Shown here piece after piece: positions 140 to 14,006 of a stretch of 14,006 nt of DNA. The notes below the pieces were generated by a model. It worked only from the letters and a program-made list of their open reading frames with translations. It did not search any database and was not told the origin of the DNA. This DNA is from Sphingobium sp. GTDB lineage: Bacteria; Pseudomonadota; Alphaproteobacteria; Sphingomonadales; Sphingomonadaceae. Position 1 is the stretch's first letter, and the number at the start of each line of letters is the position of its first letter. Where the stretch lies: assembly GCA_020051025.1 (NCBI GenBank), contig JAGVJS010000125.1, forward strand, positions 1-14,006, read 5' to 3'. The position numbers and the translations under genes were made by a program.

Positions 140-2398
140 TCAGGGGCGCAGCGACAGCGTCACGCCATAGGTGCGCGGCGTGTTGGTGAAGATTTTCCAA
201 TAGGTCGTGCCGTTGCCCGGCACCGCCAGAAAGGCGGTGATGTCGTCTGCATTGACGATCTGATAATTGTTGGTGAGGTTCTTGCCCCAGATGCCGACCG
301 TCCAGCGCCCATCGGCACCTTCGTAATTCAGCCGCGCGTTGAGCGTCCGCCCCTTCGTGTCATTATAGAGATTGTCGTAAAGACGCAGCGTGTTGGCGTC
401 GTCCGTGGAAATGCGCGCGGAATAGTTGAAATCGGCCTGCGGCGTGAGCTTGGCACCGTTCGCCATAGCCAGATCATAGCTGGCCCCGACCGTGAAGCTG
501 TCCCGCGGCGCGAATTTAGCCGGGTTGCCGGAATAATCGAGATTGACCAGCGGATCGCGCAGGTCGCTGTAAGTGCCGACAAGATGGGTCCAGTTGCCAG
601 TCAGGCGCAGACCGTCGAGCGGACGGAGCACGGATTCAACCTCGATGCCCTTCATCTTCAACGTGCCATTATAGGTATGCGCAATGCCGCCCGCGCCCGA
701 GAAATTCTGGAGATTCTTCGTCTTCTGCTTGAACAGCGCAACATTGAAATCGAGCATATTGTCGAACAGCCGAGACTTCGCGCCGATTTCGTAATTCTGC
801 GCCTTTTCCGGCTCCAGCGGGATCGTCGGGTTGAGATAGGCATTGTCGACGAAGCCGCCCGATTTGAAGCCCTTTGCCCAGGTGGCATAGAGATTCACGT
901 TCTGCATCGGACGATATTTGACCGTCACCCGCGGCGTGAAGGCATTCCATGTCTTGCCACCCGACGCGAACACTTCGCCGGGGAAGCCGAAACCGGGAAT
1001 CGCGCCTGCGTCCGTGGTGGAAAAAGCGTGATAGTCGATCTTTTTGCGATCCGACGTGTAGCGTCCACCTGCGACCAGCGACAGGCCATCGGTCACTTCG
1101 AACGTCGCCTCACCAAATACCGCGAGGCTGCGGACATTGCCTTCCTGTTCGCGCGTGATGTTGGTCACGCCCGGATTGCGCCGGACAGTCGCGTTGACGG
1201 CCGATCCGGGCAGCGGGCTGTAGTTGAAGATGTTCGTCGTCGAGACATCCGCTGACAGGAAATAACCGCCCACAACATAAGACAGACGGCCCGGCGCGGA
1301 GGCGAAGCGGACTTCCTGCGTGAAACTGCGATTCTTCACCACCTGCCGGCGATCGAAGACAGGAACCTGCGTGGCGACCGGTACATCGTCGTTGGTCGCA
1401 TGGCTGTCGTTCATCCGGTAGCCGGTAATCGACGTCAGCGTGCCGCCAAACAGATCCAGATCGCCGCGCAGATAGCCCCCGCGCAGCCGTTGGCGATAGG
1501 GCGAGCGAGCAAAGTCGTTATTCGTCCACTTGCTGTCATCATAGTCGCCAAAGCTAGCGGGAACGACCTGATTGCCGCCGATACCCAGGCTGATCGCACC
1601 GCCGTTGCCCTGCGTGTAGCTATAGTCCCCCGACAGGACGATCTTGAGCGTATCGGTCGGCCGGAACAGCAGTTTGCCGCGCATGGCGACGCCATCGGTC
1701 TTGCCATAGCTGCCCTTCTGGTTGGGCGTATCGATCAGGCCGTTCGACGTTTCCGTGCTAAATGCCGCTCGAAAGGCCAGCTTGTCATCCACCAGCACGC
1801 CGTTCACCATGCCTTCGGTGCGGACATAGGCCCCGTTGCCTGCTGTCACCTGACCGAACCAGTCTTCCTTCATCTCCGGATTATTGCTGATGACGGCGAT
1901 CGCACCGCCCACGACGTTACGGCCGAACAGGGTACCCTGCGGCCCGCGCAGCACCTCGACCCGCTGCGTGTCGAAGAAATTGGCGTTCAAGTCATTGTTG
2001 AACACATAATAGACATCGTCCATGAAATAAGCGACCGGCGTGTCGAGCGTGGCCGTGCGGAACGTCGACACATTGCCGCGTATCGCCACGATCGACAGTG
2101 ACTTGTCGGATGTGTTGACGGTGATGCCCGGCATCTGCTGGGTCAGCGCCGCGGGGCTGAACACCTGTGATTGGCGCAGCAATTCGCCGCCAAAGGCGGC
2201 TATTGAAAATGGCACTTCACGCACGGTCGACTCACGACGCTCTGCCGTCACGACAATATCTTCAGGCAACATGCTGGGCTGTGCGGCGGCATCCTGGGGC
2301 GCGCCCTGATCCGTCTGTGACCAAGCCGGCGCGGCGACCATCATGGCAATGAGGGCCGATGCTGCGACCGAGGATTTGAAGCTGAAAGGCATACCCAT
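140..2398 (-). CDS. TonB-dependent outer-membrane receptor
   Basis: Outer-membrane gated channel that imports a substrate using energy from TonB-ExbB-ExbD. The 752-residue product starts with a signal peptide (hydrophobic stretch about residues 9-22, likely cleavage after PAWS near residue 27). Next come a TonB-box-like segment EDIVVTAERR (46-55), a plug domain (about 58-170, containing QRVEVLRGPQGTLFGR near 145-160) and a long beta-barrel ending in RTYGVTLSLRP. The ATG at 2398 is preceded by AAGGGAG with only 3 bases of spacing. An in-frame ATG at 2392 gives 9 bases, so either could be used. The frame stays open to 2548, but those extra residues would sit in front of the signal peptide and are not convincing. 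It is divergent from the oxygenase operon, as is common in sphingomonads, where such receptors are proposed to bring in aromatic or polymeric substrates. The transported compound cannot be told. Confidence 0.95.
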   Translation of the reverse strand: MGMPFSFKSSVAASALIAMMVAAPAWSQTDQGAPQDAAAQPSMLPEDIVVTAERRESTVREVPFSIAAFGGELLRQSQVFSPAALTQQMPGITVNTSDKSLSIVAIRGNVSTFRTATLDTPVAYFMDDVYYVFNNDLNANFFDTQRVEVLRGPQGTLFGRNVVGGAIAVISNNPEMKEDWFGQVTAGNGAYVRTEGMVNGVLVDDKLAFRAAFSTETSNGLIDTPNQKGSYGKTDGVAMRGKLLFRPTDTLKIVLSGDYSYTQGNGGAISLGIGGNQVVPASFGDYDDSKWTNNDFARSPYRQRLRGGYLRGDLDLFGGTLTSITGYRMNDSHATNDDVPVATQVPVFDRRQVVKNRSFTQEVRFASAPGRLSYVVGGYFLSADVSTTNIFNYSPLPGSAVNATVRRNPGVTNITREQEGNVRSLAVFGEATFEVTDGLSLVAGGRYTSDRKKIDYHAFSTTDAGAIPGFGFPGEVFASGGKTWNAFTPRVTVKYRPMQNVNLYATWAKGFKSGGFVDNAYLNPTIPLEPEKAQNYEIGAKSRLFDNMLDFNVALFKQKTKNLQNFSGAGGIAHTYNGTLKMKGIEVESVLRPLDGLRLTGNWTHLVGTYSDLRDPLVNLDYSGNPAKFAPRDSFTVGASYDLAMANGAKLTPQADFNYSARISTDDANTLRLYDNLYNDTKGRTLNARLNYEGADGRWTVGIWGKNLTNNYQIVNADDITAFLAVPGNGTTYWKIFTNTPRTYGVTLSLRP

Positions 2399-2429: not shown

Positions 2430-2489
2430 CTGAGCTTGGTGAAGCAGCAAAAGGAAGAAGCGCGCAATAACATCGTCCCGATTATTGAA

Positions 2490-2500
2490 TGGTCCGACCA
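2490..2500. promoter_or_regulatory. Candidate GntR (FadR-subfamily) operator, site 1
   Basis: TGGTCCGACCA is a perfect 5+1+5 palindrome and fits the FadR-subfamily pattern TNGTNNNACNA fully. The wider context AATGGTCCGACCACATT resembles the sites at 11175-11191, 11195-11211 and 13694-13709. It lies midway in the divergent region, so a protein bound here could act on both the receptor and the oxygenase operon. The assignment to the GntR regulator encoded at the right edge is inferred. Confidence 0.6.
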
Positions 2501-2511
2501 CATTCCGATTG

Positions 2512-2530
2512 GGGTCGCCGCGAGCGACCC
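2512..2530. repeat. Inverted repeat, candidate operator
   Basis: GGGTCGC (2512-2518) and GCGACCC (2524-2530) are perfect 7-base arms with a 5-base spacer. Position and symmetry suit a dimeric DNA-binding protein. No second copy was noticed elsewhere in the window, so the binding protein is unknown; the LysR-type regulator is one candidate. Confidence 0.4.
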
Positions 2531-2558
2531 TCTAGCTAGGAGAAACAAGATTTCATGT

Positions 2559-2582
2559 GTCGTGATACAGCGAGATCACGAC
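2559..2582. repeat. Inverted repeat upstream of the oxygenase gene
   Basis: GTCGTGAT (2559-2566) and ATCACGAC (2575-2582) are perfect 8-base arms separated by 8 bases, ending 37 bases before the oxygenase start. It could be an operator or a hairpin in the oxygenase leader. There is no T-run after it, so it is not a classic terminator. Confidence 0.45.
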
Positions 2583-2619
2583 CAGGGTACAACAACGAAG
2601 ACAAGGAAGAGGCTGAGCC

Positions 2620-3933
2620 ATGCAGTCCAGTGATAGCGCCGACATGACCCGCGTGGGACCGGGAACGATCATGGGCACGATGATGCGTCAATATTGGTTG
2701 CCGGCCTGCCTGTCGTCCGAAGTGACGGCAGATGGCGACCCGGTCCGCCTGATGATCCTGTGCGAAAAGTTGATCGCTTTTCGCGACAGTTCAGGCCGCG
2801 TCGGCATCATGGACCATCGCTGCCCACATCGTTGCGCGTCGCTGTTCATCGGCCGCAACGAGCAGAATGGTATTCGCTGCGTCTATCATGGCTGGAAGTT
2901 CGATGTGGACGGCAAGTGCGTCGACATGCCTTCCGTCCCGGCGCGAATGGATTTCAAGGAAAAGGTGCATGCCAAGGCTTACAAGACTCATGAGGCCAAT
3001 GGCCTGATCTGGGTCTATATGGGCGAGAACCAGGCGAGCCCGCCACCGCTGCCCGAAATCGAGGCGACCATGCATCCCGACGCGGAAATCTGGTGCCTGC
3101 AACGTGATTGCAACTGGCTTCAGGCGCTGGAGGGGGACATCGACACCAGCCATGTCGGCTTCCTTCATGTCGGCTCGATTGAGGCGGACGATCTGGATGA
3201 AGATCATCCGATGCGCCCGACCGTACTCAACCGCGCTCCGGAATATGAGGTCGCACAGTCCGACTGGGGCGTCATGTATGGCGGCTATCGCCCGAACGAC
3301 GATGGCCAGATGAGCTGGCGCGTCGCCCATTACATGTTCCCCTTCTGGACGCAGACGCCCAACAACCGTTTCCATACCCGCGCCATCGCCCGCGCCTGGG
3401 TGCCGATGGACGACGAGCATTCCATGCTGTTCGACATCACCTGTGGAGTCGATGCAGGCAATCCGGCCTACACCTCGACGCTGAAGGATGGGACGCCACT
3501 TTTCGCGCCGCTGGAATATGCGCCCAACACGACCGATTGGTATGGCCGCTGGCGATCGCCCGACAGCCAGGCCAATGACTGGGCCATCGACAGGGAATCG
3601 CAGCGCAACGGCACGCAATTCACTGGCATCCCCAATATCACAATGCAGGATCAGGCGGTGACGGAGAGCATGGGACCGATCACGGACCATAGTTTCGAGA
3701 ATCTGGCGCCGACCGACCAGATGATCGCCCGCGTGCGTCGCCGGGTGTTGCTGGCCGCCCGTGCGCTGGCGAACAAGGGCACCCTGCCGCCGGGTATCGA
3801 AGATCCGAGCATCTTCTATCGTGCCCGTGCCGGATCGTTCCTGCATGATCCCAACGACACGCTTGCCAACGCCTATGCAGCCGCGTTGGCCAAGGCGGTC
3901 CGCTGGCCCGAACAGGTCGAGGCGGCGGAATAG
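2620..3933 (+). CDS. Rieske non-haem iron oxygenase, catalytic (alpha) subunit, phthalate dioxygenase / O-demethylase type
   Basis: Oxygenase component that would hydroxylate, dihydroxylate or oxidatively O-demethylate an aromatic or related substrate with O2 and electrons from the reductase encoded downstream. The 437 residues carry a Rieske [2Fe-2S] centre (C68-x-H70 and C87-x2-H90, in RCPHR and RCVYHGW). The mononuclear iron motif follows in GDIDTSHVGFLH, with D175 as likely bridging Asp and H178/H183 as ligands. The segment MQDQAVTESMGPITDHS is typical of the phthalate 4,5-dioxygenase/LigX-like branch, which uses no small beta subunit; none is encoded here. The start at 2620 is supported by AAGGAAGAGG ending 7 bases upstream, and the N-terminus (TRVGPGTIMGTMMRQYW) aligns with the family start as I recall it. 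The enzyme class is secure; the substrate is not. Aromatic ethers, phthalate-like acids and other hydrophobic acids are all possible. Confidence 0.93.
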   Translation: MQSSDSADMTRVGPGTIMGTMMRQYWLPACLSSEVTADGDPVRLMILCEKLIAFRDSSGRVGIMDHRCPHRCASLFIGRNEQNGIRCVYHGWKFDVDGKCVDMPSVPARMDFKEKVHAKAYKTHEANGLIWVYMGENQASPPPLPEIEATMHPDAEIWCLQRDCNWLQALEGDIDTSHVGFLHVGSIEADDLDEDHPMRPTVLNRAPEYEVAQSDWGVMYGGYRPNDDGQMSWRVAHYMFPFWTQTPNNRFHTRAIARAWVPMDDEHSMLFDITCGVDAGNPAYTSTLKDGTPLFAPLEYAPNTTDWYGRWRSPDSQANDWAIDRESQRNGTQFTGIPNITMQDQAVTESMGPITDHSFENLAPTDQMIARVRRRVLLAARALANKGTLPPGIEDPSIFYRARAGSFLHDPNDTLANAYAAALAKAVRWPEQVEAAE

Positions 3934-3943
3934 AATGACAACC

Positions 3944-3972
3944 GAGGCCGGCGCGATCCAAGCGCCGGCCTC
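3944..3972 (+). repeat. Perfect 11-bp hairpin between oxygenase and reductase genes
   Basis: GAGGCCGGCGC (3944-3954) and GCGCCGGCCTC (3962-3972) are exact complements around the 7-base loop GATCCAA, starting 10 bases after the oxygenase stop codon. There is no T-run behind it, so it is a poor intrinsic terminator. It may protect the oxygenase mRNA 3' end or attenuate the downstream genes, which would suit the higher need for oxygenase than reductase. Confidence 0.6.
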
Positions 3973-4079
3973 CTGAACAAGGATATGAGGGTGACGAAAT
4001 GCTTTGCGGCTCGTCCGGTCCGTCGATCCATGATGGCCCGGCCCTGCCAAGACACGCATCGCACCAGATGGAGAGGCAG

Positions 4080-5012
4080 ATGCGCGCAAGATTGAAGAAC
4101 ATCCGTTGGGAAGCGGAAGGGATCAACAGCTATATATTGGAACCCGTGGACGGCGGCCTGATGCCCGCATTTGAACCGGGCGCCCATGTCGACGTCCAGT
4201 TGTCACCCGGCCTCGCCCGCAGCTATTCGCTGGTCAACGACCCGGCCATTCGCAGCCATTATGAGATCGCGGTGCATCACGCGATCGACAGCCGGGGCGG
4301 GTCGCGCCACATCCATGAACAATGGCGCGTGGGCCAGATCCTGGACATTTCGGACCCGAAGAATAATTTCCCGATGGTGGAAGATGCCAGCCACACGGTA
4401 ATGATCGCGGGTGGCATCGGCATTACCCCGATGCTGCCGATGATCGCCCGGCTGAAAAAGCTGGGGCGTAGCTGGGAACTCCATTACGTCGCCGCCAGCC
4501 CGGATCGTGCTGCCTATGTCGATCGCCTGTCCGACCATGATCGAGTGGAAATCGCCTATGACGGCATCCCCGGTGGCCGCCGGCTGGACCTCGCCGCCAT
4601 CTGTGCCGCCGCTCCTGCCGATGCGCATCTGTATTGTTGCGGGCCGGGCGGTATGCTCGAGGCATTCGTCGCCACCAATTGCGACCGTCCCAAGGGCCAC
4701 GCCCATATCGAATATTTCTCGGCGGAAACGGAAGTCGCCACCGAGGGCGGCTATACGCTGGAACTGGCCAAGAGCGGCAAGACCATCAGCGTCGATGAAG
4801 GGGAAACCATGCTGGACGCTCTGCTGAGCGCCGGGGTCGATATCGGCTTTGCCTGCGCCGAGGGGATTTGCGGCACCTGTGAAGTCAAAGTGCTGAGCGG
4901 CGTCCCCGACCATCGCGACCATTTCCTGACCGATGAGGACAAGGCCGCCAACACATCGATCATGGTCTGCTGTTCGGGTTCCAAAACACCGACGCTGGTG
5001 CTCGATATCTAA
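4080..5012 (+). CDS. Oxygenase reductase: FMN/NAD domain plus plant-type [2Fe-2S] ferredoxin (phthalate dioxygenase reductase / VanB type)
   Basis: Passes electrons from NAD(P)H through FMN and a [2Fe-2S] cluster to the Rieske oxygenase encoded upstream. With the start at 4080 it has 310 residues, close to the family norm. RSYS (47-50) belongs to the flavin-binding barrel, GGIGITP (111-117) is the nucleotide-binding loop, and CCGPGGML is the later conserved loop. The C-terminal ferredoxin has C259-x4-C264-x2-C267 and C297 as cluster ligands. The N-terminus MRARLKNIRWEAEGINSY looks like the true family start, and GGAGAGG lies directly upstream. In-frame ATGs at 4068 and 3999 exist, the latter with GAGGG before it, and would add 4 or 27 unconserved-looking residues. 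A 146-base gap with a strong hairpin separates it from the oxygenase gene. The pairing makes a two-component class IA-type system. Confidence 0.93.
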   Translation: MRARLKNIRWEAEGINSYILEPVDGGLMPAFEPGAHVDVQLSPGLARSYSLVNDPAIRSHYEIAVHHAIDSRGGSRHIHEQWRVGQILDISDPKNNFPMVEDASHTVMIAGGIGITPMLPMIARLKKLGRSWELHYVAASPDRAAYVDRLSDHDRVEIAYDGIPGGRRLDLAAICAAAPADAHLYCCGPGGMLEAFVATNCDRPKGHAHIEYFSAETEVATEGGYTLELAKSGKTISVDEGETMLDALLSAGVDIGFACAEGICGTCEVKVLSGVPDHRDHFLTDEDKAANTSIMVCCSGSKTPTLVLDI

Positions 5013-5092
5013 AATACGAAATTCCGGTTTTTCAATGCCGGGCCAGAAAATGAATAAGCGGTCGAAAACGGCCCAAGGGTAAGGAGAATGTC

Positions 5093-6448
5093 TTGGCGGT
5101 TGCCACGATAGACAGCAGCAGCTCGCAATCCATGCTGGACGACCTGCCGATGTCGGCTTTCCAGCTATGGTCGGTGCTGATGATCGCCGCGACCGTCATC
5201 CTCGACGGGCTCGACAACCAGATGCTCGGCCTGGCTGCGCCGTCGCTGCTCAAGCAATGGGGCATTGGACGGGAGGCGCTGGGGTCGGTGTTTGCGCTGG
5301 GTTTCGTCGGCATGGCGGTCGGCACCTTGACGTCGGGCTGGGTCGGTGACCGGTTCGGGCGGCGCGGCGCTTTGATCATCGGCGTCGCCATTTTCGGCGT
5401 GGCGACGCTGCTGACCGGTTTCGCCGATGCGTTGTGGCAGGTGGCGATACTCAAGATGCTGGCAGGCGTCGGGCTGGGCGGGGTGCCGGGCACGGCGAGC
5501 GCCATGATCGCGGAATTCACCCCGGTCCGCTGGCGCAGCATCGCAGTGACATTCGGTGTGGTCTGCGTTTCCATCGGCGGGATACTGGGCGGGATAGCCG
5601 CCGCCCTGATCCTGCCCGGTCTTGGCTGGCGCTGGCTCTTCTACATTGGCGGCACGGCGACGCTCCTTTTTGTAGCCTGGCTATGGTCGGTCCTGCCGGA
5701 ATCTCCCCGCTATCTCGCACAACGCCCTGATCGTGCCGACGAGCTGGAACATATTTTGCGCCGCATCGGCCATCCCGATCCGGCATCGGTCAGGCATCAG
5801 GCGCACACGACGCGCGACGCCGTGCATTATGAGCCCATGCGCAAGCTGTTCGGGCCTGCGTTGCTGCGCGATACGATGGCGCTGTCGATTGCCATGTTTT
5901 CGGGTATGTTCATGATTTACCTCATGTTCAACTGGGCTCCGACGATGCTCAACAGCGCGGGGTTCGGTCTTCAGACCGCCAGCCTTGGCCTGACCAGCTT
6001 CAACATGGGCGGCACCACCGGCGCGATGATCGCCAGCCTTGCCATCATCCGCTTCGGGTCGCGACCGGTCTTGATCCTGATGGCTGTCGTCGGCGCGAGC
6101 GTATGCGCGACGCTGGCTCTGCTGCCGATCGATGGCGGTCGCAATGAAGGGGCGGTGCTCGCCTGCCTCGGTGCGCTTGGCCTTTTCGCCAGCGCCGCCC
6201 AATCCGCCATGTTCGCAGTCGGCGCTCATGCCTTTCCCACCGTCTTGCGCGCGCGGGGTCTTGGCTTGATGGGCGCGGCCGGGCGAGCAGGCGCGATCGT
6301 AAGCGCCATCGCCGGCGCCATATTGATCGGCTGGAGCAATCTGGGCTTCTTTGGCGCGCTGGCCGCATTGATGCTGCTCAACGCCATCGGTTTCATCGCC
6401 GTGCGGGGCCATATTCCGCCACTCGGCCGCAAGGACATGCACATATGA
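5093..6448 (+). CDS. MFS transporter, aromatic acid:H+ symporter (AAHS) type
   Basis: Inner-membrane importer of 451 residues with about 12 hydrophobic segments in two halves. LDGLDNQMLGLAAP (37-50) matches the AAHS signature in the first helix (DGxD, as in PcaK/BenK-type carriers), and GWVGDRFGRR (82-91) is the MFS loop 2-3 motif. The start is a TTG at 5093: AAGGAG ends 6 bases before it, an in-frame stop lies at 5051, and no in-frame ATG or GTG occurs between them. An ATG at 5088 is out of frame and stops after seven codons. The stop overlaps the next start as ATGA, so the alcohol dehydrogenase is probably translationally coupled. Position within the operon suggests it imports the pathway substrate, likely an organic acid, while the TonB receptor handles the outer membrane. 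The cargo is not determinable. Confidence 0.9.
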   Translation: MAVATIDSSSSQSMLDDLPMSAFQLWSVLMIAATVILDGLDNQMLGLAAPSLLKQWGIGREALGSVFALGFVGMAVGTLTSGWVGDRFGRRGALIIGVAIFGVATLLTGFADALWQVAILKMLAGVGLGGVPGTASAMIAEFTPVRWRSIAVTFGVVCVSIGGILGGIAAALILPGLGWRWLFYIGGTATLLFVAWLWSVLPESPRYLAQRPDRADELEHILRRIGHPDPASVRHQAHTTRDAVHYEPMRKLFGPALLRDTMALSIAMFSGMFMIYLMFNWAPTMLNSAGFGLQTASLGLTSFNMGGTTGAMIASLAIIRFGSRPVLILMAVVGASVCATLALLPIDGGRNEGAVLACLGALGLFASAAQSAMFAVGAHAFPTVLRARGLGLMGAAGRAGAIVSAIAGAILIGWSNLGFFGALAALMLLNAIGFIAVRGHIPPLGRKDMHI

Positions 6449-8073
6449 GCGACGCCTTCGACTATATCGTGATCGGTTCCGGTTCGGCCGGCAGCCTGAT
6501 GGCCAATCGCCTGTCCGCCGATCCCGCCAATCGCGTCGCCCTGATCGAAGCCGGGCCGTCCGACAGGAAATGGCCGGTCAACATCAAGACAGCCATGCCG
6601 GTCGGGAATATCTTCCTACTGCCTCATGAAAAATATAACTGGAAGCAGTCGCTTGCCGGCAATTCCGCTGTCCACAACCGCCAGATCAATTTCCCGCGTG
6701 GCAAGCTGTTCGGCGGGTGCAGCGCGATCAATGGCGGCGTCTATATTAGGGGCCAGATGGCCGATTACGACGCCTGGGCCGATGCCGGCAATCGCGGCTG
6801 GTCCTATTCCGACGTGCTCCCCGCCTTCAAATCTGTAGAAAATTATGCCGGCCCTGACAGAGCCTGGCATGGCAAGGGCGGTGAACTGGATGTCCAGAAG
6901 CCCAAAAGCTGGAACCCGATCGCAAGCGCCATCGTCGATGCCGCCGCGCAGGCAGGCCATCATCGCAACGATGATTTTGCCGGTGTACGGCAGGATGGCT
7001 TTGGCCGCTATGACCTCAACCAGCGCAATGGCACCCGCCTGTCGAGTGCGCGCGCCTTTCTGCATCCCGCGCTGGGACGCGGTAACCTGACGGTTCTGGA
7101 CGAAACCCTGGTGCGCCGCATCCTGTTTGATCGCGGCCGGGCCGTGGGCCTGGAAATCGAGAAGGACGGTGCGCGCCGCACGGTCAGCGCCCGGCGAGAG
7201 ATCATCCTGTGCGCCGGCGCGACCAACTCGCCGCAATTGCTGATGCTGTCCGGCATCGGCCCGCAGGACCATCTGAAGGATATGGGGATCGATCTGGTCC
7301 ATCATCTGCCCGGTGTCGGGCAGCATCTTCAGGACCATCCGACCGTCCATGTGGCGATGGAAAATCCCTCGGCCGAATCCTACGCCATTTCGGCCAAGGC
7401 ACTGCCCCGCATCCTTGCCAGCCCGCTGAAATATCTGACCAACCGCACCGGCATGCTGGCGTCCAACGTCGCGGAATGCGGCGGTTTCCTCTGCACCGAC
7501 GGAAGCGGCCGACCTGACATCCAGATTACCTTCCTGGTCGGGCTGAAGATCGACGCCCGCGCCATTCCCCGCCGCCATGGCTATATGGCGCTGATCCAGT
7601 TGCTGCGTCCCAAAAGCGCCGGATCGGTGCGGCTGGCTAGCAACCGCCCGGAAGACAAGCCGGTGATCGATCCCAATTTCTTCGCCGATCCTTATGACAT
7701 GAAGACCCTAATCGCCGGTTTCCGTGAAGCCCGGCGCATCTTCGCCCAGCCTGCGCTTGCCGCCATGACCGGCGCGGAGATCGAGCCGGGCGCGCAATAT
7801 CAAAGCGACGCGGAGATCGACGCGGCCCTGCGCAAGATCGTCAACACCGCCTACCACCCGACCGGCACCTGCAAGATGGGGCCGGACAGCGATCCCATGG
7901 CCGTGGTTGACGGGCGCCTGCGCGTGCGCGGCGTGGCCGGTCTGCGCGTGGTCGATGCGTCGGTCATGCCGGAGATCATCAGCGGCAACACATCCGCGCC
8001 CACCATGATGATCGCTGAGCGGGCGGCGCGCTTCATTCTGGAAGACGCTCATCAATCGAATATCGCCGCCTGA
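6445..8073 (+). CDS. GMC family FAD-dependent alcohol dehydrogenase/oxidase
   Basis: Flavoprotein expected to oxidise a primary alcohol to an aldehyde. It has 542 residues. The ADP-binding fold is YIVIGSGSAG (7-16) with the acidic end of the second strand at E35. GMC signature 1 lies in RGKLFGGCSAINGGVYIRG (about 85-103) and signature 2 in GATNSPQLLMLSGIGP. The C-terminal active-site pair is H471 (in YHPTGTCKMG) and N515 (in SGNTSAPTMMIAE). It resembles choline dehydrogenase, polyethylene-glycol dehydrogenase and aryl-alcohol dehydrogenases of the family; choline is unlikely in this context. Its ATG overlaps the transporter stop (ATGA), and the aldehyde dehydrogenase follows 22 bases later. 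The two enzymes therefore look like a consecutive alcohol-to-acid pair. An oxidase reaction using O2 cannot be excluded. Confidence 0.93.
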   Translation: MSDAFDYIVIGSGSAGSLMANRLSADPANRVALIEAGPSDRKWPVNIKTAMPVGNIFLLPHEKYNWKQSLAGNSAVHNRQINFPRGKLFGGCSAINGGVYIRGQMADYDAWADAGNRGWSYSDVLPAFKSVENYAGPDRAWHGKGGELDVQKPKSWNPIASAIVDAAAQAGHHRNDDFAGVRQDGFGRYDLNQRNGTRLSSARAFLHPALGRGNLTVLDETLVRRILFDRGRAVGLEIEKDGARRTVSARREIILCAGATNSPQLLMLSGIGPQDHLKDMGIDLVHHLPGVGQHLQDHPTVHVAMENPSAESYAISAKALPRILASPLKYLTNRTGMLASNVAECGGFLCTDGSGRPDIQITFLVGLKIDARAIPRRHGYMALIQLLRPKSAGSVRLASNRPEDKPVIDPNFFADPYDMKTLIAGFREARRIFAQPALAAMTGAEIEPGAQYQSDAEIDAALRKIVNTAYHPTGTCKMGPDSDPMAVVDGRLRVRGVAGLRVVDASVMPEIISGNTSAPTMMIAERAARFILEDAHQSNIAA

Positions 8074-8095
8074 TCGCGGCACCGGAGAGAATGCC

Positions 8096-9583
8096 ATGAA
8101 CATGATGACCATCCCGCCCCGCCCCGCCCTACTCGACACGCCGCAGCAGGATATGCTGATCGGCGGCAAGCGTGTCCCCGCCCTGTCAGGCAAGCGTTTC
8201 GAAACCCGCAACCCCGCGACGGGTGAATTGCTCGCCACGGTAGCGCAAGGTGGCGCAGAGGATGTCGATCGCGCGGTAAAGGCTGCCCGCGCCGCCTTTG
8301 AAGGCCCCTGGCGCGCGATGAAGCCGGTCGAGCGCCAGCGCATCATGCTGCGCCTCGCTGATCTGGTCGAAGAGCATTACGAGGAACTCGCGATGCTCGA
8401 CACGCTGGACCTTGGAGCGCCCTATAGCCGCACCATCATGGGCAAGGCGCGCGCCGGGGCGCTGCTGCGCTATTATGCCGGGCAGGCGATGCTGATCACC
8501 GGCGACACAATCGACAATAATGCACCCGGCGATGTTATATCGCATACGCTGAAGGAACCGATCGGCGTCGTTGCCGCGATCAACCCCTGGAACGGTCCGA
8601 TCGGCATGTCCGTCTGGAAAGCCGGGCCGGTTCTGGCCACCGGCTGCACCCTAGTCATGAAGCCCGCTGAGCAGACGCCACTATCCGCCCTGCGCTTTGG
8701 CGAACTATGCCTGGAAGCCGGTGTACCCGAAGGTGTCATCAATATTGTTACCGGATTGGGCGATGCCGGTGCAGCCCTGTCCAGCCACCCCGACGTCGAC
8801 AAGATCGCCTTCACCGGTTCTACCGGTGTCGGCGAGAAAATCCTCCATGCCGCCGCACCGACGATGAAGCGCGTCACCGTCGAACTCGGCGGCAAGTCGC
8901 CCAATATCGTCTTTGCCGATGCTGATCTGGAAAAGGCGGTTCCCGCCGCCGCCATGGCCGTGTTCGCCAATGCCGGGCAAATTTGTTCGGCTGGCACGCG
9001 CCTTTTCGTGCAGTCCACGATCCATGACGAATTCATGGAACGACTTGCTGCCTATACTAAGACGATCCGTGTCGGCGATCCGCTCGATCCAGAAACCCAG
9101 ATCGGCCCGGTCGTCTCAGCCCCCCAGATGGACAAAATTCTGGCCTTCATCGACAGCGCACACAAGGAAGGCGCGCAGCCACTGACCGGCGGCAACCGCA
9201 TGCGCGGTACAGGCTATGATGCCGGCTATTTCATCGAACCGACCATCTTCACCGGCGTTGCGGACGACATGACCATCGCGCGCGAGGAAATTTTTGGCCC
9301 TGTCCTGTCCGCCTTCACCTTCGACACGATCGAAGAGGTGCTCGCCCGCGCCAATGCCACGGAATTCGGCTTGGGCAGCGGCGTGTGGACCCGCGATCTG
9401 GCAACGGCGCATCGTATGGCGCGCGGCATTCGCGCCGGATCGGTCTGGGTGAACTGCTATCAGATGCTCGATCCTGCTGTTCCTTTTGGTGGCTACAAGA
9501 TGAGTGGCTTTGGCCGGGAATCCGGGCCGCACCATATCGAGGACTATCTTGAGACCAAGGCTATCTGGATGAAGCTTGACTGA
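8096..9583 (+). CDS. NAD(P)-dependent aldehyde dehydrogenase
   Basis: Oxidises an aldehyde, presumably the product of the GMC enzyme, to the carboxylic acid. The 495 residues match the usual family length. Visible are the oxyanion Asn in NPWN (163-166), the cofactor loop FTGSTGVGEKI, the general base E263 in VELGGKSP and the nucleophile C297 in GQICSAGTR, followed by EEIFGPVL and the C-terminal PFGGYKMSGFGRE. All catalytic residues are present. The ATG at 8096 has GGAGAG six bases upstream. An ATG at 8091 is out of frame and reads only Met-Pro-stop, so it is not used as a gene. It is closest in appearance to the betaine/aromatic aldehyde dehydrogenase group, but the substrate must be inferred from the neighbours. 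Confidence 0.94.
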   Translation: MNMMTIPPRPALLDTPQQDMLIGGKRVPALSGKRFETRNPATGELLATVAQGGAEDVDRAVKAARAAFEGPWRAMKPVERQRIMLRLADLVEEHYEELAMLDTLDLGAPYSRTIMGKARAGALLRYYAGQAMLITGDTIDNNAPGDVISHTLKEPIGVVAAINPWNGPIGMSVWKAGPVLATGCTLVMKPAEQTPLSALRFGELCLEAGVPEGVINIVTGLGDAGAALSSHPDVDKIAFTGSTGVGEKILHAAAPTMKRVTVELGGKSPNIVFADADLEKAVPAAAMAVFANAGQICSAGTRLFVQSTIHDEFMERLAAYTKTIRVGDPLDPETQIGPVVSAPQMDKILAFIDSAHKEGAQPLTGGNRMRGTGYDAGYFIEPTIFTGVADDMTIAREEIFGPVLSAFTFDTIEEVLARANATEFGLGSGVWTRDLATAHRMARGIRAGSVWVNCYQMLDPAVPFGGYKMSGFGRESGPHHIEDYLETKAIWMKLD

Positions 9584-9597
9584 AGCGGGGTTCCGAA

Positions 9598-9822
9598 GTG
9601 GAGACCAAACAGAGCAGTCATCGCCCAGCCGTGCATCTGGACGATCATATCATTGCCCAAATGCAAGTCCTGGCAACAGGACGGACCGATGAAGCGCTCA
9701 ACGCGCGGTTCGGGATCAGCTATAATACCTGGCGAAAACTGTTGGCGGGCGAGGCAGTGCGCCCATCGCTCGCCCATCGGCTCAGATTGCGGATTGAAGC
9801 GCTCCAGGCACCCGAGACCTGA
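9598..9822 (+). CDS. Small helix-turn-helix-like protein, function unknown
   Basis: A 74-residue protein starting at GTG 9598, 14 bases after the aldehyde dehydrogenase stop, and therefore probably the last gene of the operon. The ribosome-binding site is weak (GGGG about 8 bases upstream). Residues about 31-56, DEALNARFGISYNTWRKLLA followed by GEAVRP, look like a helix-turn-helix in which the second helix would be YNTWRKLLAG. The C-terminal part is basic (HRLRLRIEAL). No gene-family name is recognised with confidence. It may be a small DNA-binding protein that modulates the operon, or an accessory protein. The coding call rests on position, length and protein-like composition. Its stop lies only 15 bases from the stop of the convergent LysR gene. 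Confidence 0.6.
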   Translation: METKQSSHRPAVHLDDHIIAQMQVLATGRTDEALNARFGISYNTWRKLLAGEAVRPSLAHRLRLRIEALQAPET

Positions 9823-9837
9823 CCCCCGACCCGATAA

Positions 9838-11070
9838 TCAGACCCAGCCAGATGCCCGCAGATCAGAGGGGGCGCCCTCTGCGGTCTCGCCCGTCGCTGC
9901 GTCCCCGAGCATTTCCAGAAATCGACGCTGTGTAGCGGTCGGTCGCCAACTGCGTCGCGTGGTAATGCCCACGACACGCTTCGTCCCTTCCAGAGCGGGG
10001 CCGACCTGCGTCAACAATCCGCTCCGGATTTGGAGCGCGACCTGATCGGGCGACAACAGCGTCAAGAAATTGCCCTCTGTCAGCAAGCGGCCGATGATCA
10101 TGACCGATCCGCATTCAACAGGCGTCGAGGGTGTCGTCACTTCTGCAAAAAGATTTTCCCATTGCTCGCGCAGCGGTGAATTGGCGGGGGCGACAATCCA
10201 GGGATAGGTCGCCAGTTGCTCCATGCTTGGCTTCTCCACGCCGGCCAGCGGATGCTGGCTGCCGGCCGCAATCACGAGCCGATCTTCCGTCAACGGCAAT
10301 TGATAGAGGTCGGCGATCTCATAGGGACGCAATGCGCCGACGATGATGTCGATCACGCCATCACGCAGCGGTTCGACAAGTTCACGCCAACTGCCTTCCA
10401 GTACTTTAAAGGCAGCGCGCGGATCGCTTCGCGCCATCCGGGCCATGGCGGCCGGCACCAGATAGGGGCGAGACAACGGCAGGGCACCAAAAGCGATCAA
10501 TTCACTGCCGCTGCCGCTATCGCGGCCAATATCAGCCAGCGCCGCCACGATCTCCGCAACAGCCAGGCGCGTCCCGCGCGCCAACTTCTTGCCGGCCGAA
10601 TTGAGCCACACCGCCCGCCCCCGCCGCTCCACCAGCTTGCCACCGATCATATGCTCCAGATCGCCGACGGCCCGGTGCACGGCCGTCTGCGACAAAGTGC
10701 TGCCATGGGCCGCCGCTGCAAAACTGCCCGCTTCTGCCAGCGCCAGAAACGCCCGCAACTGGGTCATCGTCATCAGCCGTTCGGGATATTGGAACACGCC
10801 TGACAGACCCTTGGCCGCCTGCGATAAATGGTCCAGCGCTGCGCTGGCCCGCTCGATGACGATCTCCCCCATTGCCGTGGGGACCATCCCGCCCGATCGC
10901 CTTTCGAAAAAACTATAGCCGAACTGCCGCTCCAGCTTGGCCAGCCCCTGAGTCAGAGCGGGCTGGGACAGGCTCACGACATCGGCCGCGGCCGTGATGC
11001 TGCCATGTTCGCGTATTGCCAGCAGAGCGCGCAGGTGCCGCAGATTGAGGTCGAACGGATCGGTCGCCAT
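9838..11070 (-). CDS. LysR-type transcriptional regulator with two tandem N-terminal DNA-binding domains
   Basis: Transcription factor of 410 residues, about 100 more than a normal LysR protein. The extra length is a second winged helix-turn-helix. Domain 1 spans about residues 8-69 (LRALLAIREHGSITAAADVV...SQPALTQGLAKLERQFG), and domain 2 spans about 102-160 (LRAFLALAEAGSFAAAAHGS...SQTAVHRAVGDLEHMIGGKL). A LysR-type effector-binding domain follows from about 190 to 385, and then a polar tail. Both domains keep the A-A recognition-helix context and the Q-x-A-(L/V) turn, so both may bind DNA. The ATG at 11070 has only a weak AAGAG upstream; a GGAGG lies too far away. It is divergent from the acyl-CoA dehydrogenase and convergent with the oxygenase operon, so it plausibly controls one or both and itself. 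The inducer is probably a pathway intermediate. Confidence 0.93.
   Translation of the reverse strand: MATDPFDLNLRHLRALLAIREHGSITAAADVVSLSQPALTQGLAKLERQFGYSFFERRSGGMVPTAMGEIVIERASAALDHLSQAAKGLSGVFQYPERLMTMTQLRAFLALAEAGSFAAAAHGSTLSQTAVHRAVGDLEHMIGGKLVERRGRAVWLNSAGKKLARGTRLAVAEIVAALADIGRDSGSGSELIAFGALPLSRPYLVPAAMARMARSDPRAAFKVLEGSWRELVEPLRDGVIDIIVGALRPYEIADLYQLPLTEDRLVIAAGSQHPLAGVEKPSMEQLATYPWIVAPANSPLREQWENLFAEVTTPSTPVECGSVMIIGRLLTEGNFLTLLSPDQVALQIRSGLLTQVGPALEGTKRVVGITTRRSWRPTATQRRFLEMLGDAATGETAEGAPSDLRASGWV
9864..9881. repeat. GC-rich hairpin near the 3' end of the LysR gene
   Basis: CAGAGGG (9864-9870) and CCCTCTG (9875-9881) are perfect 7-base arms around a 4-base loop, inside the last codons of the LysR gene and about 40 bases past the end of the convergent operon. 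Neither direction has a T-run. It might help stop or stabilise the operon transcript, but coding constraint alone could explain it. Confidence 0.3.
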
Positions 11071-11174
11071 GCCGCTTACTCTTGTTACCCTCCGCCCGCG
11101 CCCTTTCCGGGTCGTCGGTCTTGTCTCCGACTCCTAAAGGATGATTCCGCACCCGCCAAGAGCGACAAAGCTTT

Positions 11175-11191
11175 TAATGGACTGACCATTA
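11175..11191. promoter_or_regulatory. Candidate GntR (FadR-subfamily) operator, site 2
   Basis: TAATGGACTGACCATTA has 6-base arms (TAATGG/CCATTA) around 5 bases. The core TGGACTGACCA differs at one position from the TGGTCNGACCA core of site 1. Its centre (11183) is 20 bases, about two helical turns, from the centre of site 3, so two dimers could bind on one face of the DNA. Confidence 0.6.
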
Positions 11192-11194
11192 GAC

Positions 11195-11211
11195 AAATGG
11201 TAGGACCATTT
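11195..11211. promoter_or_regulatory. Candidate GntR (FadR-subfamily) operator, site 3
   Basis: AAATGGTAGGACCATTT is a perfect palindrome of 7-base arms around AGG and fits TNGTNNNACNA. It shares the 12-base string GGTAGGACCATT with the minus strand of site 4 in front of the CoA-transferase. It lies 50 bases before the acyl-CoA dehydrogenase start, in a position suited to repression. Confidence 0.7.
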
Positions 11212-11261
11212 CACGCCACGGCATAATCGTGCTGCGGATTCGAGTGAAAAGGAGGTTGCTC

Positions 11262-12401
11262 ATGGATTTTGAACTGCCAGACGATGTCCGGGAATTTTGT
11301 GAGGTGACGCGCACTATCGTTCGCGACCTTTTGCCCTACGAGATCGAATTTCAGGAAACCGGCAATGTCCCGCCGATCGTGCGTCAGACATTGGTTGACA
11401 ATGGCTATTTCGGCATGGCCCTTCCCGAACAATATGGCGGGCTTGGCCTTGGCGCCCTCGCGCAGGCGGCGGTACAGATCGAACTTGCGCGCCTGCCTCC
11501 GCAATTCTGGACCGAACTGCGCCCGCTGATGGGGCCGGGCGCAAAAAATATCATGTATCATGCATCGGAAGCCCAGCGTGAAGCCCTGCTGCCTGGTATG
11601 GCAACCGGCGAAATCCCGATCGCCTTCGCCCTGACCGAACCTAATAGCGGTTCGGACCCCGGATCTATGCGCACCACCGCCGTCCGCAACGCAGATGGCT
11701 GGCTGATCAACGGCAGCAAGACATTCATCTCGAATGGCAAGAAGGCCAAATATGTGATCGTCTATGCCTATACGGATAAATCGGCAGGCGCGCGCGGCGG
11801 CATCTCTGCCTTTTTGATGCCGGCCGATACGCCCGGCTTCTCGGTCACCGGTACGATCGAACTTATGGGGACCGCAACACCGGGCGTCTTCGAACTGAGT
11901 TTCGATGAATGCCAGGTCGGCCCAGACGCCCTGATCGGCGAACTGGGCCGGGGCTTTCACTATGCGCTTGAAGGCCTGAACGAAGGCCGGATGAATGTCG
12001 GCGCGACCGCTGTGGGCATGGGCGAATATGCGCTGGAACTGGCGATCGAGGAATCGAAGCAACGTCCGGCTTTTGGCGGCGTGATCTCCGACTTCCAGGC
12101 GATCCGCCACTATATCGCCACCATGGCGACCGACATGCGGGCCGCACGCTTGATCCTGCTCGATGCCGCATGGCGTTATGATCAGGGCGAGAAACGGCGC
12201 GAACTGGCGTCCATGGCGAAATTATTCGCCACCGAAGCGGGCAGCCGCACGGTAGATACGGCGGTCCAGATATTCGGCGGCACCGGCTATTGCCGGGGCT
12301 TTGCGGTCGAACGTCTCTATCGCGACATTCGCATCACCCGCATCTATGAAGGATCGTCGGAAATCCAGAAGAACACGATCGCGCGCGAACTGCTGCGATA
12401 A
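11262..12401 (+). CDS. Acyl-CoA dehydrogenase
   Basis: FAD enzyme that introduces an alpha,beta double bond into an acyl-CoA thioester. It has 379 residues, a standard length. The flavin and substrate loop is seen in FALTEPNSGSDPGSMRTTA and the middle beta-domain in WLINGSKTFISNG. The C-terminal helical domain has FGGTGYCRGFAVERLYRD and IYEGSSEIQKNTIAREL, where E363 is the expected catalytic base. The ATG at 11262 is preceded by AAAAGGAGG with 7-base spacing; a GTG at 11229 in the same frame has no comparable site. It stands as a single-gene unit with its own promoter carrying two operators and ends at a strong terminator. With the CoA-transferase it supplies a beta-oxidation-like branch. Electrons would go to ETF, which is not encoded here. 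Chain type of the substrate is unknown. Confidence 0.94.
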   Translation: MDFELPDDVREFCEVTRTIVRDLLPYEIEFQETGNVPPIVRQTLVDNGYFGMALPEQYGGLGLGALAQAAVQIELARLPPQFWTELRPLMGPGAKNIMYHASEAQREALLPGMATGEIPIAFALTEPNSGSDPGSMRTTAVRNADGWLINGSKTFISNGKKAKYVIVYAYTDKSAGARGGISAFLMPADTPGFSVTGTIELMGTATPGVFELSFDECQVGPDALIGELGRGFHYALEGLNEGRMNVGATAVGMGEYALELAIEESKQRPAFGGVISDFQAIRHYIATMATDMRAARLILLDAAWRYDQGEKRRELASMAKLFATEAGSRTVDTAVQIFGGTGYCRGFAVERLYRDIRITRIYEGSSEIQKNTIARELLR

Positions 12402-12446
12402 AATTAAGGGCGGGACGCGCAACGCCTCCCGCTCTTCGATCCTTGC

Positions 12447-12472
12447 AAGGGCGGGTATATCCCCGCCCTTTT
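12447..12472 (+). terminator. Strong intrinsic terminator after the acyl-CoA dehydrogenase
   Basis: AAGGGCGGG (12447-12455) pairs perfectly with CCCGCCCTT (12462-12470) around a 6-base loop, followed by further T residues (TTTT at 12469-12472). It lies 45 bases past the dehydrogenase stop and 5 bases before the convergent CoA-transferase stop. The A residues at 12447-12448 give only two U on the minus strand, so it works mainly in the plus direction. Confidence 0.85.
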
Positions 12473-12476
12473 CCTG

Positions 12477-13676
12477 TCAGAGCAGATCGCCCTTCTCTCG
12501 CAAGGTTGCGATCCGGTCGTCATCCAGCCCAAGTCCGGCCAGAAGTGCTGCGCCATCCTGCCCCAGACATGACACATGATCGCGCGCTTCGACCCGCGAG
12601 CCACTCATACGGAACGGCGGATTGGACACTTTGTAGCGCCCGGCGCCATCCGCTATCTCGGCAAAGGCGCCACGCACCGCCAGTTGCGGATCGTCCAGCA
12701 GTTCGCCTATCTCGCGATAGCGCGCGCAAGGAACGCCGTACCCCGAAAGGATCGTTTCCGCTTCCTCAGCAAGATGCTGCTCTGTCCATTTTTCGGTCAA
12801 GGCCAGCAGGGTCGCCCAATTAGCGTTACGATCGGCACTGGTGCGGAAGCGCGGATCGTCCCGCCATTCCGGATGACCAACCGCATCGGCAAGCTGCTCG
12901 AAATTGCGCGGTGATGTTGGCGCAACCATGATGAACCCATCGCGGGTCTTGAGCGGCGTATAGAGCGGGCGCCGGGCGTCGCCGGGAAATTGCGCCTCCT
13001 GCGTTTCGAACACCAGCATGCCGACCATCGCTTCGAGCATGGATACGTCGATATGCTGCCCCTCGCCCGTCCGTTCACGCTGGTAGAGCGCAGCCTGAAT
13101 CGCACCGAAGGCATGGGTTCCGCCCAGAACGTCCGCAACGAATATGCCGCTGGTCGCCGGTCGTTCCGCCCCGTCCTGATAACGTAGATTGACCATGTCG
13201 AAGCCGCTGGCCGCATGGATGACGGGCGCATAGGCCGGGAACAGCGCTTTTGGCCCCGTCTGGCCATAGCCGGAGATGGAACAGTAGATGAGGCGGGGAT
13301 TGATGTCCTGCAGCGTAGCATAATCCAGCCCGAACCGCTGCATCACGCCCGGCCTGAAATTTTCCACCAGCACATCGCAGTTTGCAACCATCTGCTTGAT
13401 CAGCGCCACCATTTCGGGTGATTTCAGGTTGCACGCGATGCTCTGCTTGCCTGCGTTAAGGTTGCCGAAATAGGCGCTGAACCCTTCACGTAGCGGCGGC
13501 CGCGCCCGCACCTGATCGCCCTCTAGCGACTCCACCTTGATCACCTGCGCGCCAAGATCGGCCAGCATCCGCGTGGCGAAAGGCCCCGCCATGACACTGG
13601 TAAAATCCAGCACGCGCACCCCGTCCAGTGCCCCTGCGCTGACAGCCATCCCGTTTTCCGCCATATCCTCACCCAT
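12477..13676 (-). CDS. Class III CoA-transferase (CaiB/BaiF family)
   Basis: Transfers CoA from a donor thioester to a carboxylic acid, activating it for further breakdown. It has 399 residues, the family norm. Conserved segments are RVLDFTSVMAGPFATRMLAD with LGAQVIKVE (21-49), NLNAGKQSI, DVLVENFRPGVM (101-112) and ISGYGQTGP. The catalytic Asp is D182 in GIFVADVLGG, followed by HIDVSMLEAM. The ATG at 13676 has no ribosome-binding site. In-frame ATGs at 13664 (GAGGA just upstream, tight spacing) and 13649 are alternatives, or the mRNA may be leaderless, since AAATATTAA lies only 9-17 bases before 13676. It converges on the acyl-CoA dehydrogenase and shares its operator type, which supports CoA activation followed by dehydrogenation. 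No acyl-CoA ligase is present, so this is the only visible activating enzyme. Confidence 0.93.
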   Translation of the reverse strand: MGEDMAENGMAVSAGALDGVRVLDFTSVMAGPFATRMLADLGAQVIKVESLEGDQVRARPPLREGFSAYFGNLNAGKQSIACNLKSPEMVALIKQMVANCDVLVENFRPGVMQRFGLDYATLQDINPRLIYCSISGYGQTGPKALFPAYAPVIHAASGFDMVNLRYQDGAERPATSGIFVADVLGGTHAFGAIQAALYQRERTGEGQHIDVSMLEAMVGMLVFETQEAQFPGDARRPLYTPLKTRDGFIMVAPTSPRNFEQLADAVGHPEWRDDPRFRTSADRNANWATLLALTEKWTEQHLAEEAETILSGYGVPCARYREIGELLDDPQLAVRGAFAEIADGAGRYKVSNPPFRMSGSRVEARDHVSCLGQDGAALLAGLGLDDDRIATLREKGDLL

Positions 13677-13681
13677 GATTA

Positions 13682-13693
13682 GGACTTAATATT
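13682..13693 (-). promoter_or_regulatory. Possible -10 region of the CoA-transferase promoter
   Basis: Read on the minus strand, TAAATATTAA falls just downstream of operator site 4 and is the only AT-rich block near the gene. Taking TATTAA as the -10 hexamer, transcription would start at or very near the ATG at 13676. The -35 element is not recognisable, so this is tentative. Confidence 0.3.
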
Positions 13694-13709
13694 TAATGGT
13701 CCTACCTAT
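13694..13709. promoter_or_regulatory. Candidate GntR (FadR-subfamily) operator, site 4
   Basis: TAATGGTCCTACCTAT is an imperfect palindrome (ATGGT/ACCtAT) 18 bases upstream of the CoA-transferase start. On the minus strand it contains GGTAGGACCATT, identical to site 3. It directly adjoins the AT-rich AAATATTAA that could serve as the -10 element, so a bound protein would block the promoter. Confidence 0.6.
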
Positions 13710-13788
13710 CACATGAGGTGCAAGATGGGTCAACTGCCAGATGGCGGCACGGATGGGCCCTTATCCGGTTATTGGGTTATGGGGACTA

Positions 13789-14006
13789 TCAGCCCCTGGC
13801 TGCCTTGCTGTTCTTGCGCACATGGCGATGCACGCGCTCCAGATGCTTGCGCATTTCCGCGACGGCCGCATCACTGTCATTGGCGCGCAGATGGCGCACC
13901 AATCTGAAGCGGGATTCGATCAGCGACTGTTGCAGCATCTCATAATCCGGCCCCCGCACGAACTCGTGCAGAATCGCAGAGAGCGAATTCACGAAAATGC
14001 CGAAAA
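13789..14006 (-). CDS. GntR-family transcriptional regulator, FCD (FadR-like) domain, C-terminal part; 5' end outside the window
   Basis: The minus-strand frame is open from the window edge to the stop at 13789, giving 71 complete codons of the protein's end. The reading FGIFVNSLSAILHEF, then SLIESRFRLVRHLRANDSDA and AVAEMRKHLERV, matches the last helices of an FCD ligand-binding domain. There N-x-L, a helix before 'R-A-x-D', and M-R-x-H-L are typical. The position usually occupied by a metal-binding His in 'E-H-R' appears to be Arg here, while the final His (MRKHL) is kept. The DNA-binding N-terminus is not in view, so the family call rests on the C-terminus alone. It is the natural candidate to bind the four TGGTCNGACCA-like palindromes in this window, and it precedes the CoA-transferase on the same strand. 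Confidence 0.8.
   Translation of the reverse strand, partial: FGIFVNSLSAILHEFVRGPDYEMLQQSLIESRFRLVRHLRANDSDAAVAEMRKHLERVHRHVRKNSKAARG

Follow-up and report, generated by a model that had tools for sequence, protein, structure and literature searches.

The regulators most closely comparable with the one considered here belong to the FadR subfamily of the GntR family, among them PdhR, LldR, GlcC, DgoR and FadR, for which palindromes of the type TKGT-N3-ACMA, with three nucleotides between GT and AC, have been described (PMC4494728). In Agrobacterium, hydroxycinnamate catabolism is repressed by the FCD protein Atu1419, which acts at palindromes on the -10 and -35 elements of several promoters (PMC7797058), and PheR of Sphingobium SHPJ-2 is a repressor that links uptake through TonB receptors to aromatic catabolism (PMC13273656). 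The present analysis concerns four palindromes, S1 to S4 (Table 1), in the 14,006-nucleotide contig JAGVJS010000125.1 of a Sphingobium sp. (assembly GCA_020051025.1), called the window throughout, which is the complete contig C411 of a 2.44-Mb metagenome-assembled genome (MAG) that is 61% complete. Judged from sequence, these palindromes are very probably the operators of a FadR-subfamily GntR regulator, its gene cut by the right edge of the window, that would repress the cluster as a unit. Full-length relatives of this regulator share the GntR winged helix-turn-helix and the FCD domain with the FadR-subfamily proteins, and its sites share the three-nucleotide gap, but the outer half-sites here are AATGGT/ACCATT and two of the metal-binding histidines have been replaced. 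Atu1419 is likewise an FCD regulator with palindromes on promoter elements; it differs in its operator, ATGTATACAT, in its metal-bearing effector domain and in being a tetramer (PMC7797058), and is about 18-20% identical to the regulator here in the fold match. PheR resembles it in linking TonB receptor uptake with aromatic catabolism in Sphingobium, but is of the IclR family and has a different DNA motif (PMC13273656). A literature search, with most subscription papers outside its reach, found no report of this regulon, which is no proof of novelty; a new regulon of a familiar kind, conserved and pathway-wide, is well supported.

On re-reading the sequence, the four palindromes were found where the initial annotation had located them, and AATGG-N5-CC is common to all. 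Its mismatch count against TNGTNNNACNA was also reproduced, with full fits at 2490 and 11198 and one mismatch each at 11178 and 13697. The core TGGTNNNACCA, a literature form of the FadR-subfamily core and as such independent of these sites, has six matches at up to one mismatch in a plus-strand scan of the window; four are the palindromes, all intergenic, and two, at 5986 and 12918, lie inside genes with one mismatch each. Four matches in the intergenic part of the window, which totals 1,174 bp, compare with a simulated mean of 0.24 and maximum of 3, and four were reached in none of 2000 runs. Because two one-mismatch core matches fall within genes, the accompanying remark that none was noticed inside genes had to be limited to the longer motif, AATGGTNNNACCATT, which at up to two mismatches picks out exactly the four palindromes in the window. 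The simpler patterns AATGGNNNNACC and AATGGNNNNNCCATT, with loose mismatches, showed no over-representation there.

A scan with the Rieske protein recovered 35 loci, most of them from sphingomonads with the same cluster; counts of promoter sites leave aside L047, L048, L049, L051, L052 and L053, in which the cluster layout is different or incomplete. Relatives that keep the regulator also retain the sites at the orthologous promoters, so that the comparison proposed in the initial annotation comes out in favour of its reading. At up to two mismatches the Rieske promoter carries its site (S1) in 28 of 30 loci and the CoA-transferase promoter (S4) in 16 of 16, and a site is present at the acyl-CoA dehydrogenase promoter in all 27 loci. 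Where both S2 and S3 are present at up to two mismatches (19 loci), their starts are always 20 apart, and eight further loci keep one. Across 28 cluster loci, the DNA outside the cluster genes (33.9 kb) has 88 motif copies and the DNA inside them (331 kb) has 6, where "outside" means DNA not covered by the search proteins and may include unlisted genes; eight control palindromes in the same loci gave 0-15 copies outside and 0-14 inside, the figure of 15 coming from a control that contains most of the motif. In alignments the half-sites are clearly set off from the variable DNA around them and the central bases differ between loci, a pattern best seen at the CoA-transferase promoter.

The regulator was followed in 28 genomes reached through the loci (L029, L041, L046, L047, L048, L049 and L052 were not covered), and an orthologue was found at E <= 1e-93 in 26 of them. 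Of the other two, G027 (Mesobacterium) has a 42% relative, and in G028, a Hyphomonadaceae MAG, no orthologue was found at E <= 1e-45. The 40% identical relative has AATGGTCTGACATTT beside its start in L049 and in L105 of G027, both of them Rhodobacterales-type loci. Full-length relatives, those of L035 and L040, have an N-terminal GntR winged helix (PF00392) and a C-terminal FCD domain (PF07729), both of which are assigned to the window protein by orthology; the 69-residue window fragment alone had no Pfam match. FadR-subfamily proteins have a recognition-helix Arg that contacts G; the corresponding residues here, R56 and R60, do not vary among the 22 aligned rows and match, in a by-eye alignment, Arg45 and Arg49 of FadR, which are named as DNA contacts in PMC7797058. 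The sites have TKGT and ACMA boxes three nucleotides apart in a palindrome, as is characteristic of FadR-subfamily operators, and we infer that protein and sites form a pair. A model of the regulator (mean predicted local distance difference test score 82, predicted template modelling (TM) score 0.61) gave fold matches to LldR, NanR, FadR and Atu1419, with modest TM-scores of 0.39-0.53 by query length among the matches listed; the closest PDB sequence match is CGL2915/LldR, and NCBIfam matches to NanR and PdhR fall far below their cut-offs. G010 (C10, L107) and G015 (L089, L106) each have a second copy of the regulator, which in G010 is incomplete and lies close to a truncated etfB. In Paraburkholderia (L048), ATTGGTCCCACCAAT (L048:181) and AATGGTTGGACCAAT (L048:6130) lie upstream of two Rieske-like genes, with a distant GntR-like match of 30% identity between them.

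The regulon originally proposed, comprising the receptor and oxygenase operon, the acyl-CoA dehydrogenase and the CoA-transferase, is supported by the conserved sites but was drawn too narrowly. Judging by their upstream sites, etfBA and a P450terp-like cytochrome P450 (CYP), whose closest PDB match is P450-terp, also belong to it in relatives. Where etfBA is divergent from gntR, a perfect site lies upstream of etfB, and each of the 18 loci in which etfB starts beside gntR has a site with at most one mismatch; of 11 rows without an etfB start beside gntR, eight lack a site and three have one (L094 and L107, in which etfB is cut, and L101). For the CYP gene, 15 of 17 rows have a site about 100-110 bp upstream; two rows represent a single genome. 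Relocated genes are also informative: in Croceicoccus-type genomes (Croceicoccaceae-type loci) a relocated dehydrogenase-etfB unit keeps a perfect site in all four loci for which the upstream region is available, and in Croceicoccus (L133) the CYP gene has moved to the opposite end of the cluster with its perfect site. By contrast, 10 etfB copies that lie away from the cluster are all without a site at up to two mismatches. The plain prediction that etfB would carry the site elsewhere in genomes where it is not next to gntR failed: the etfB copies found in G008, G009 and G011 have none and look unrelated to the cluster, and G019 gave a partial match only. The gntR gene is itself perhaps a member. 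A perfect site about 110 bp upstream of it had been taken for autoregulation and was reassigned to the divergent etfBA once the neighbouring gene was read; the weaker conserved element GGTCNNNCCATTGS, present in 20 of 29 rows, is a candidate autoregulation site.

The position of the sites relative to candidate promoters bears on how the regulator would act. In the S2/S3 region a standard sigma-70 scan gave no promoter, and an alphaproteobacterial consensus was then compared by eye; three pairs of -35 and -10-like boxes (Table 1) resemble the Caulobacter RpoD consensus, TTGaCgS / GCTANAWC (PMC8144410). The patterns were composed after the alignment had been viewed, so that their counts are descriptive and not tests: a TTGGGG-N17-CTAGCT-type pattern occurs at 30 of 30 Rieske loci, with spacer 17 and variable letters between, TGGAC-N16-GSTA at 23 of 27 dehydrogenase loci, and TTG(A/C)NN with a spacer of 16-18 before NATAGGT at 16 of 16 CoA-transferase loci. 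In L032 and L045, which have lost S3, the GCTA -10-like block remains at unchanged spacing, and TGGACGG remains in L038, which has lost S2. This would explain why S2 and S4 are imperfect palindromes, since their sequence would also serve as promoter boxes. With promoter boxes inside the operators at the dehydrogenase and CoA-transferase promoters, repression fits there and is the likely mode of regulation. Full or partial activation by the GntR regulator bound at these sites, of the kind that FadR exerts at some of its promoters, is unlikely; S1 is in an activator-like position, with 6 bp between it and the candidate Rieske -35 box downstream, but at S2/S3 and S4, which contain candidate promoter boxes, a bound protein should block. 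Since S1 lies upstream of the Rieske -35 box within a wide conserved block, a second protein, perhaps the LysR-type regulator encoded in the cluster, may act there.

That regulator, whose gene adjoins S2/S3, would in a further alternative be the protein that binds all the palindromes in place of the GntR regulator. Its gene is divergent from that of the acyl-CoA dehydrogenase, the usual place for a LysR operator, and the conserved DNA around S1 could accommodate a LysR site, but the motif is of the FadR-subfamily type (PMC4494728) and sites also occur at etfBA, CYP and the CoA-transferase, away from the LysR gene. A LysR operator should follow the LysR gene where GntR is absent. One locus, L053, bears on this: it keeps the receptor, Rieske, LysR (63% identical), dehydrogenase and CoA-transferase genes, GntR was not found, and no site at up to three mismatches occurs in the receptor-Rieske, LysR-dehydrogenase or CoA-transferase upstream gaps. 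This single example argues for GntR rather than LysR as the binder. G028, the genome of L053, has one perfect site elsewhere, beside an unrelated-looking gene. On the motif type and L053, LysR was set aside as highly unlikely to be the binder. The LysR-type regulator is 410 residues long, with its two HTH_1 stretches at about residues 10-69 and near 101-160; relatives of about equal length occur in sphingomonad loci (75-97% identity) and two Rhodobacterales-type loci (60-64%), and a literature search for a LysR-type regulator with a double helix-turn-helix found no match.

The specificity of the motif depends strongly on stringency. In 26 sphingomonad genomes (about 129 Mb), 41 of 42 perfect sites lie at the cluster and one elsewhere (G025) by manual tally, and the reversed pattern has three perfect copies. 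At up to one mismatch, AATGGTNNNACCATT has four sites in the MAG, two of them in the window promoter at 11176-11210 and the other two (C75:991 and C60:3432) within open reading frames of 191 and 313 residues. A number of observations weigh against the operator reading. At up to two mismatches the MAG contains 42 sites, as against 24 for the reversed-pattern control, so that the motif is not specific at this level, the only one that two of the four window sites reach; in four relatives the two-mismatch motif is similarly common (56-136 sites per genome; reversed control 37-67). Among 296 genomes of the order, the GntR orthologue was found in 3 and perfect sites in 52, and 48 of 292 genomes without a found orthologue carry 64 perfect sites (counted by hand); the motif would thus be common to other regulators or arise by chance, and sequence alone is no proof. 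S1 does not coincide with any obvious Rieske promoter box, and the conserved DNA that surrounds it exceeds the width of a single GntR site, so that another protein may bind there. L024 and L027 lack the CYP site, and at up to two mismatches S1 is missing from L027 and L032, where it has three. L053 is the only GntR-less cluster found, and it comes from a MAG in which the gene may be missing. Finally, the loci are mutually related and conservation counts are not independent. Chance likeness, or general conservation among close relatives without regulatory meaning, could draw on the unspecific weaker window sites and on the many closely related loci; it is extremely improbable, given the confinement of the sites to intergenic DNA, the fixed half-sites with variable central bases, the retention of sites by relocated genes and the loss of the site along with etfB.

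For repression by the GntR regulator, the following course of events is proposed. A GntR dimer would bind AATGGT-N3-ACCATT and, without inducer, would repress the receptor/oxygenase divergon and the acyl-CoA dehydrogenase and CoA-transferase promoters, together with etfBA and the P450terp-like CYP in relatives. Bound over the -35 and -10 boxes of the dehydrogenase and CoA-transferase promoters, it would shut out RNA polymerase; S2 and S3, 20 bp apart, could be occupied side by side. S1, just upstream of the Rieske -35 box, seems better placed for blocking LysR, as a co-regulator, or the promoter of the divergent receptor gene. The regulator would be released by an intermediate of the pathway, perhaps a CoA thioester.

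In FCD proteins the ligand is usually held by a bound metal; FadR itself lacks the metal histidines (PMC7674646), and its ligand is acyl-CoA, according to PDB titles. In an alignment with LldR, two of the three metal-binding histidines of the regulator are Tyr and Arg and the third is His in 22 of 22 sequences, so that the full set of three conserved histidines was found in none of these rows. With two metal histidines gone, a metal-chelated organic acid becomes less likely as ligand and a CoA thioester is left open as possible. In a bolder and rather doubtful reading, one FCD regulator, having lost the canonical metal site, would respond to a CoA-thioester intermediate and govern an entire undescribed sphingomonad pathway in a single step: uptake across the outer membrane, hydroxylation by the P450terp-like CYP, oxidation of alcohol and aldehyde, transfer of CoA, dehydrogenation of the acyl-CoA with a dedicated electron-transfer flavoprotein, and oxygenation by the Rieske protein.

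The features of the window are collected in Table 1. The gene order from the Rieske oxygenase to the aldehyde dehydrogenase is matched in most sphingomonad loci found; L035 gave no MFS match. Between the aldehyde dehydrogenase and LysR genes is a 73-residue open frame (9601-9822, +) that looks helix-turn-helix-like by eye and has no Pfam match. As to the substrate, the Rieske protein is close to a phthalate 4,5-dioxygenase-like chain. In L053 (Hyphomonadaceae), genes downstream of the cluster (L053:17183-18699) resemble, by eye, protocatechuate 4,5-dioxygenase subunits and the next enzyme of that pathway, which hints at a pathway draining to protocatechuate.

Table 1. Genes, probable operators and candidate promoters in the window
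Feature	Coordinates	Strand	Remarks
TonB-dependent receptor gene	140..2392	-	Pfam PF00593, PF07715
Operator S1, AATGGTCCGACCACA	2488..2502	.	between divergent TonB-dependent receptor and Rieske oxygenase genes
Candidate Rieske operon promoter	2509..2537	+	-35 TTGGGG 2509-2514, -10 CTAGCT 2532-2537, spacer 17
Rieske oxygenase, ferredoxin reductase, MFS aromatic-acid-type transporter, GMC oxidoreductase and aldehyde dehydrogenase genes (putative operon)	2620..9583	+	
LysR-type regulator gene	9838..11070	-	two HTH_1 stretches; rival binder of the palindromes
Operator S2, AATGGACTGACCATT	11176..11190	.	LysR/acyl-CoA dehydrogenase gap
Candidate acyl-CoA dehydrogenase promoter	11178..11206	+	-35 TGGACTG 11178-11184, N14, -10 GGTAGGAC 11199-11206; inside S2/S3
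Operator S3, AATGGTAGGACCATT	11196..11210	.	sole perfect copy in the MAG
Acyl-CoA dehydrogenase gene	11262..12401	+	
Class III CoA-transferase gene	12477..13676	-	PF02515
Operator S4, AATGGTCCTACCTAT	13695..13709	.	18 bp upstream of CoA-transferase start as used here
Candidate CoA-transferase promoter	13705..13733	-	-35 TTGACC 13733-13728, spacer 17, -10 GATAGG 13710-13705; -10 partly in S4
GntR/FCD regulator gene, 3' end (last 69 aa)	13798..14006	-	truncated by contig edge; 94% identity to L019 gene at equivalent place

The regulon described here would tie separate transcription units, some of them relocated in relatives, into one pathway under one regulator, and it offers a short gene list and a single regulator for testing. 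With regulator and operator known, the inducer, and hence the substrate, should be findable by a simple reporter. The dehydrogenase and CoA-transferase promoters would provide well-resolved cases of operators that contain promoter boxes, in which evolution has removed the operator and kept the box. If the regulator does sense a CoA thioester, an acyl-CoA sensor would have arisen within the FCD group separately from FadR.

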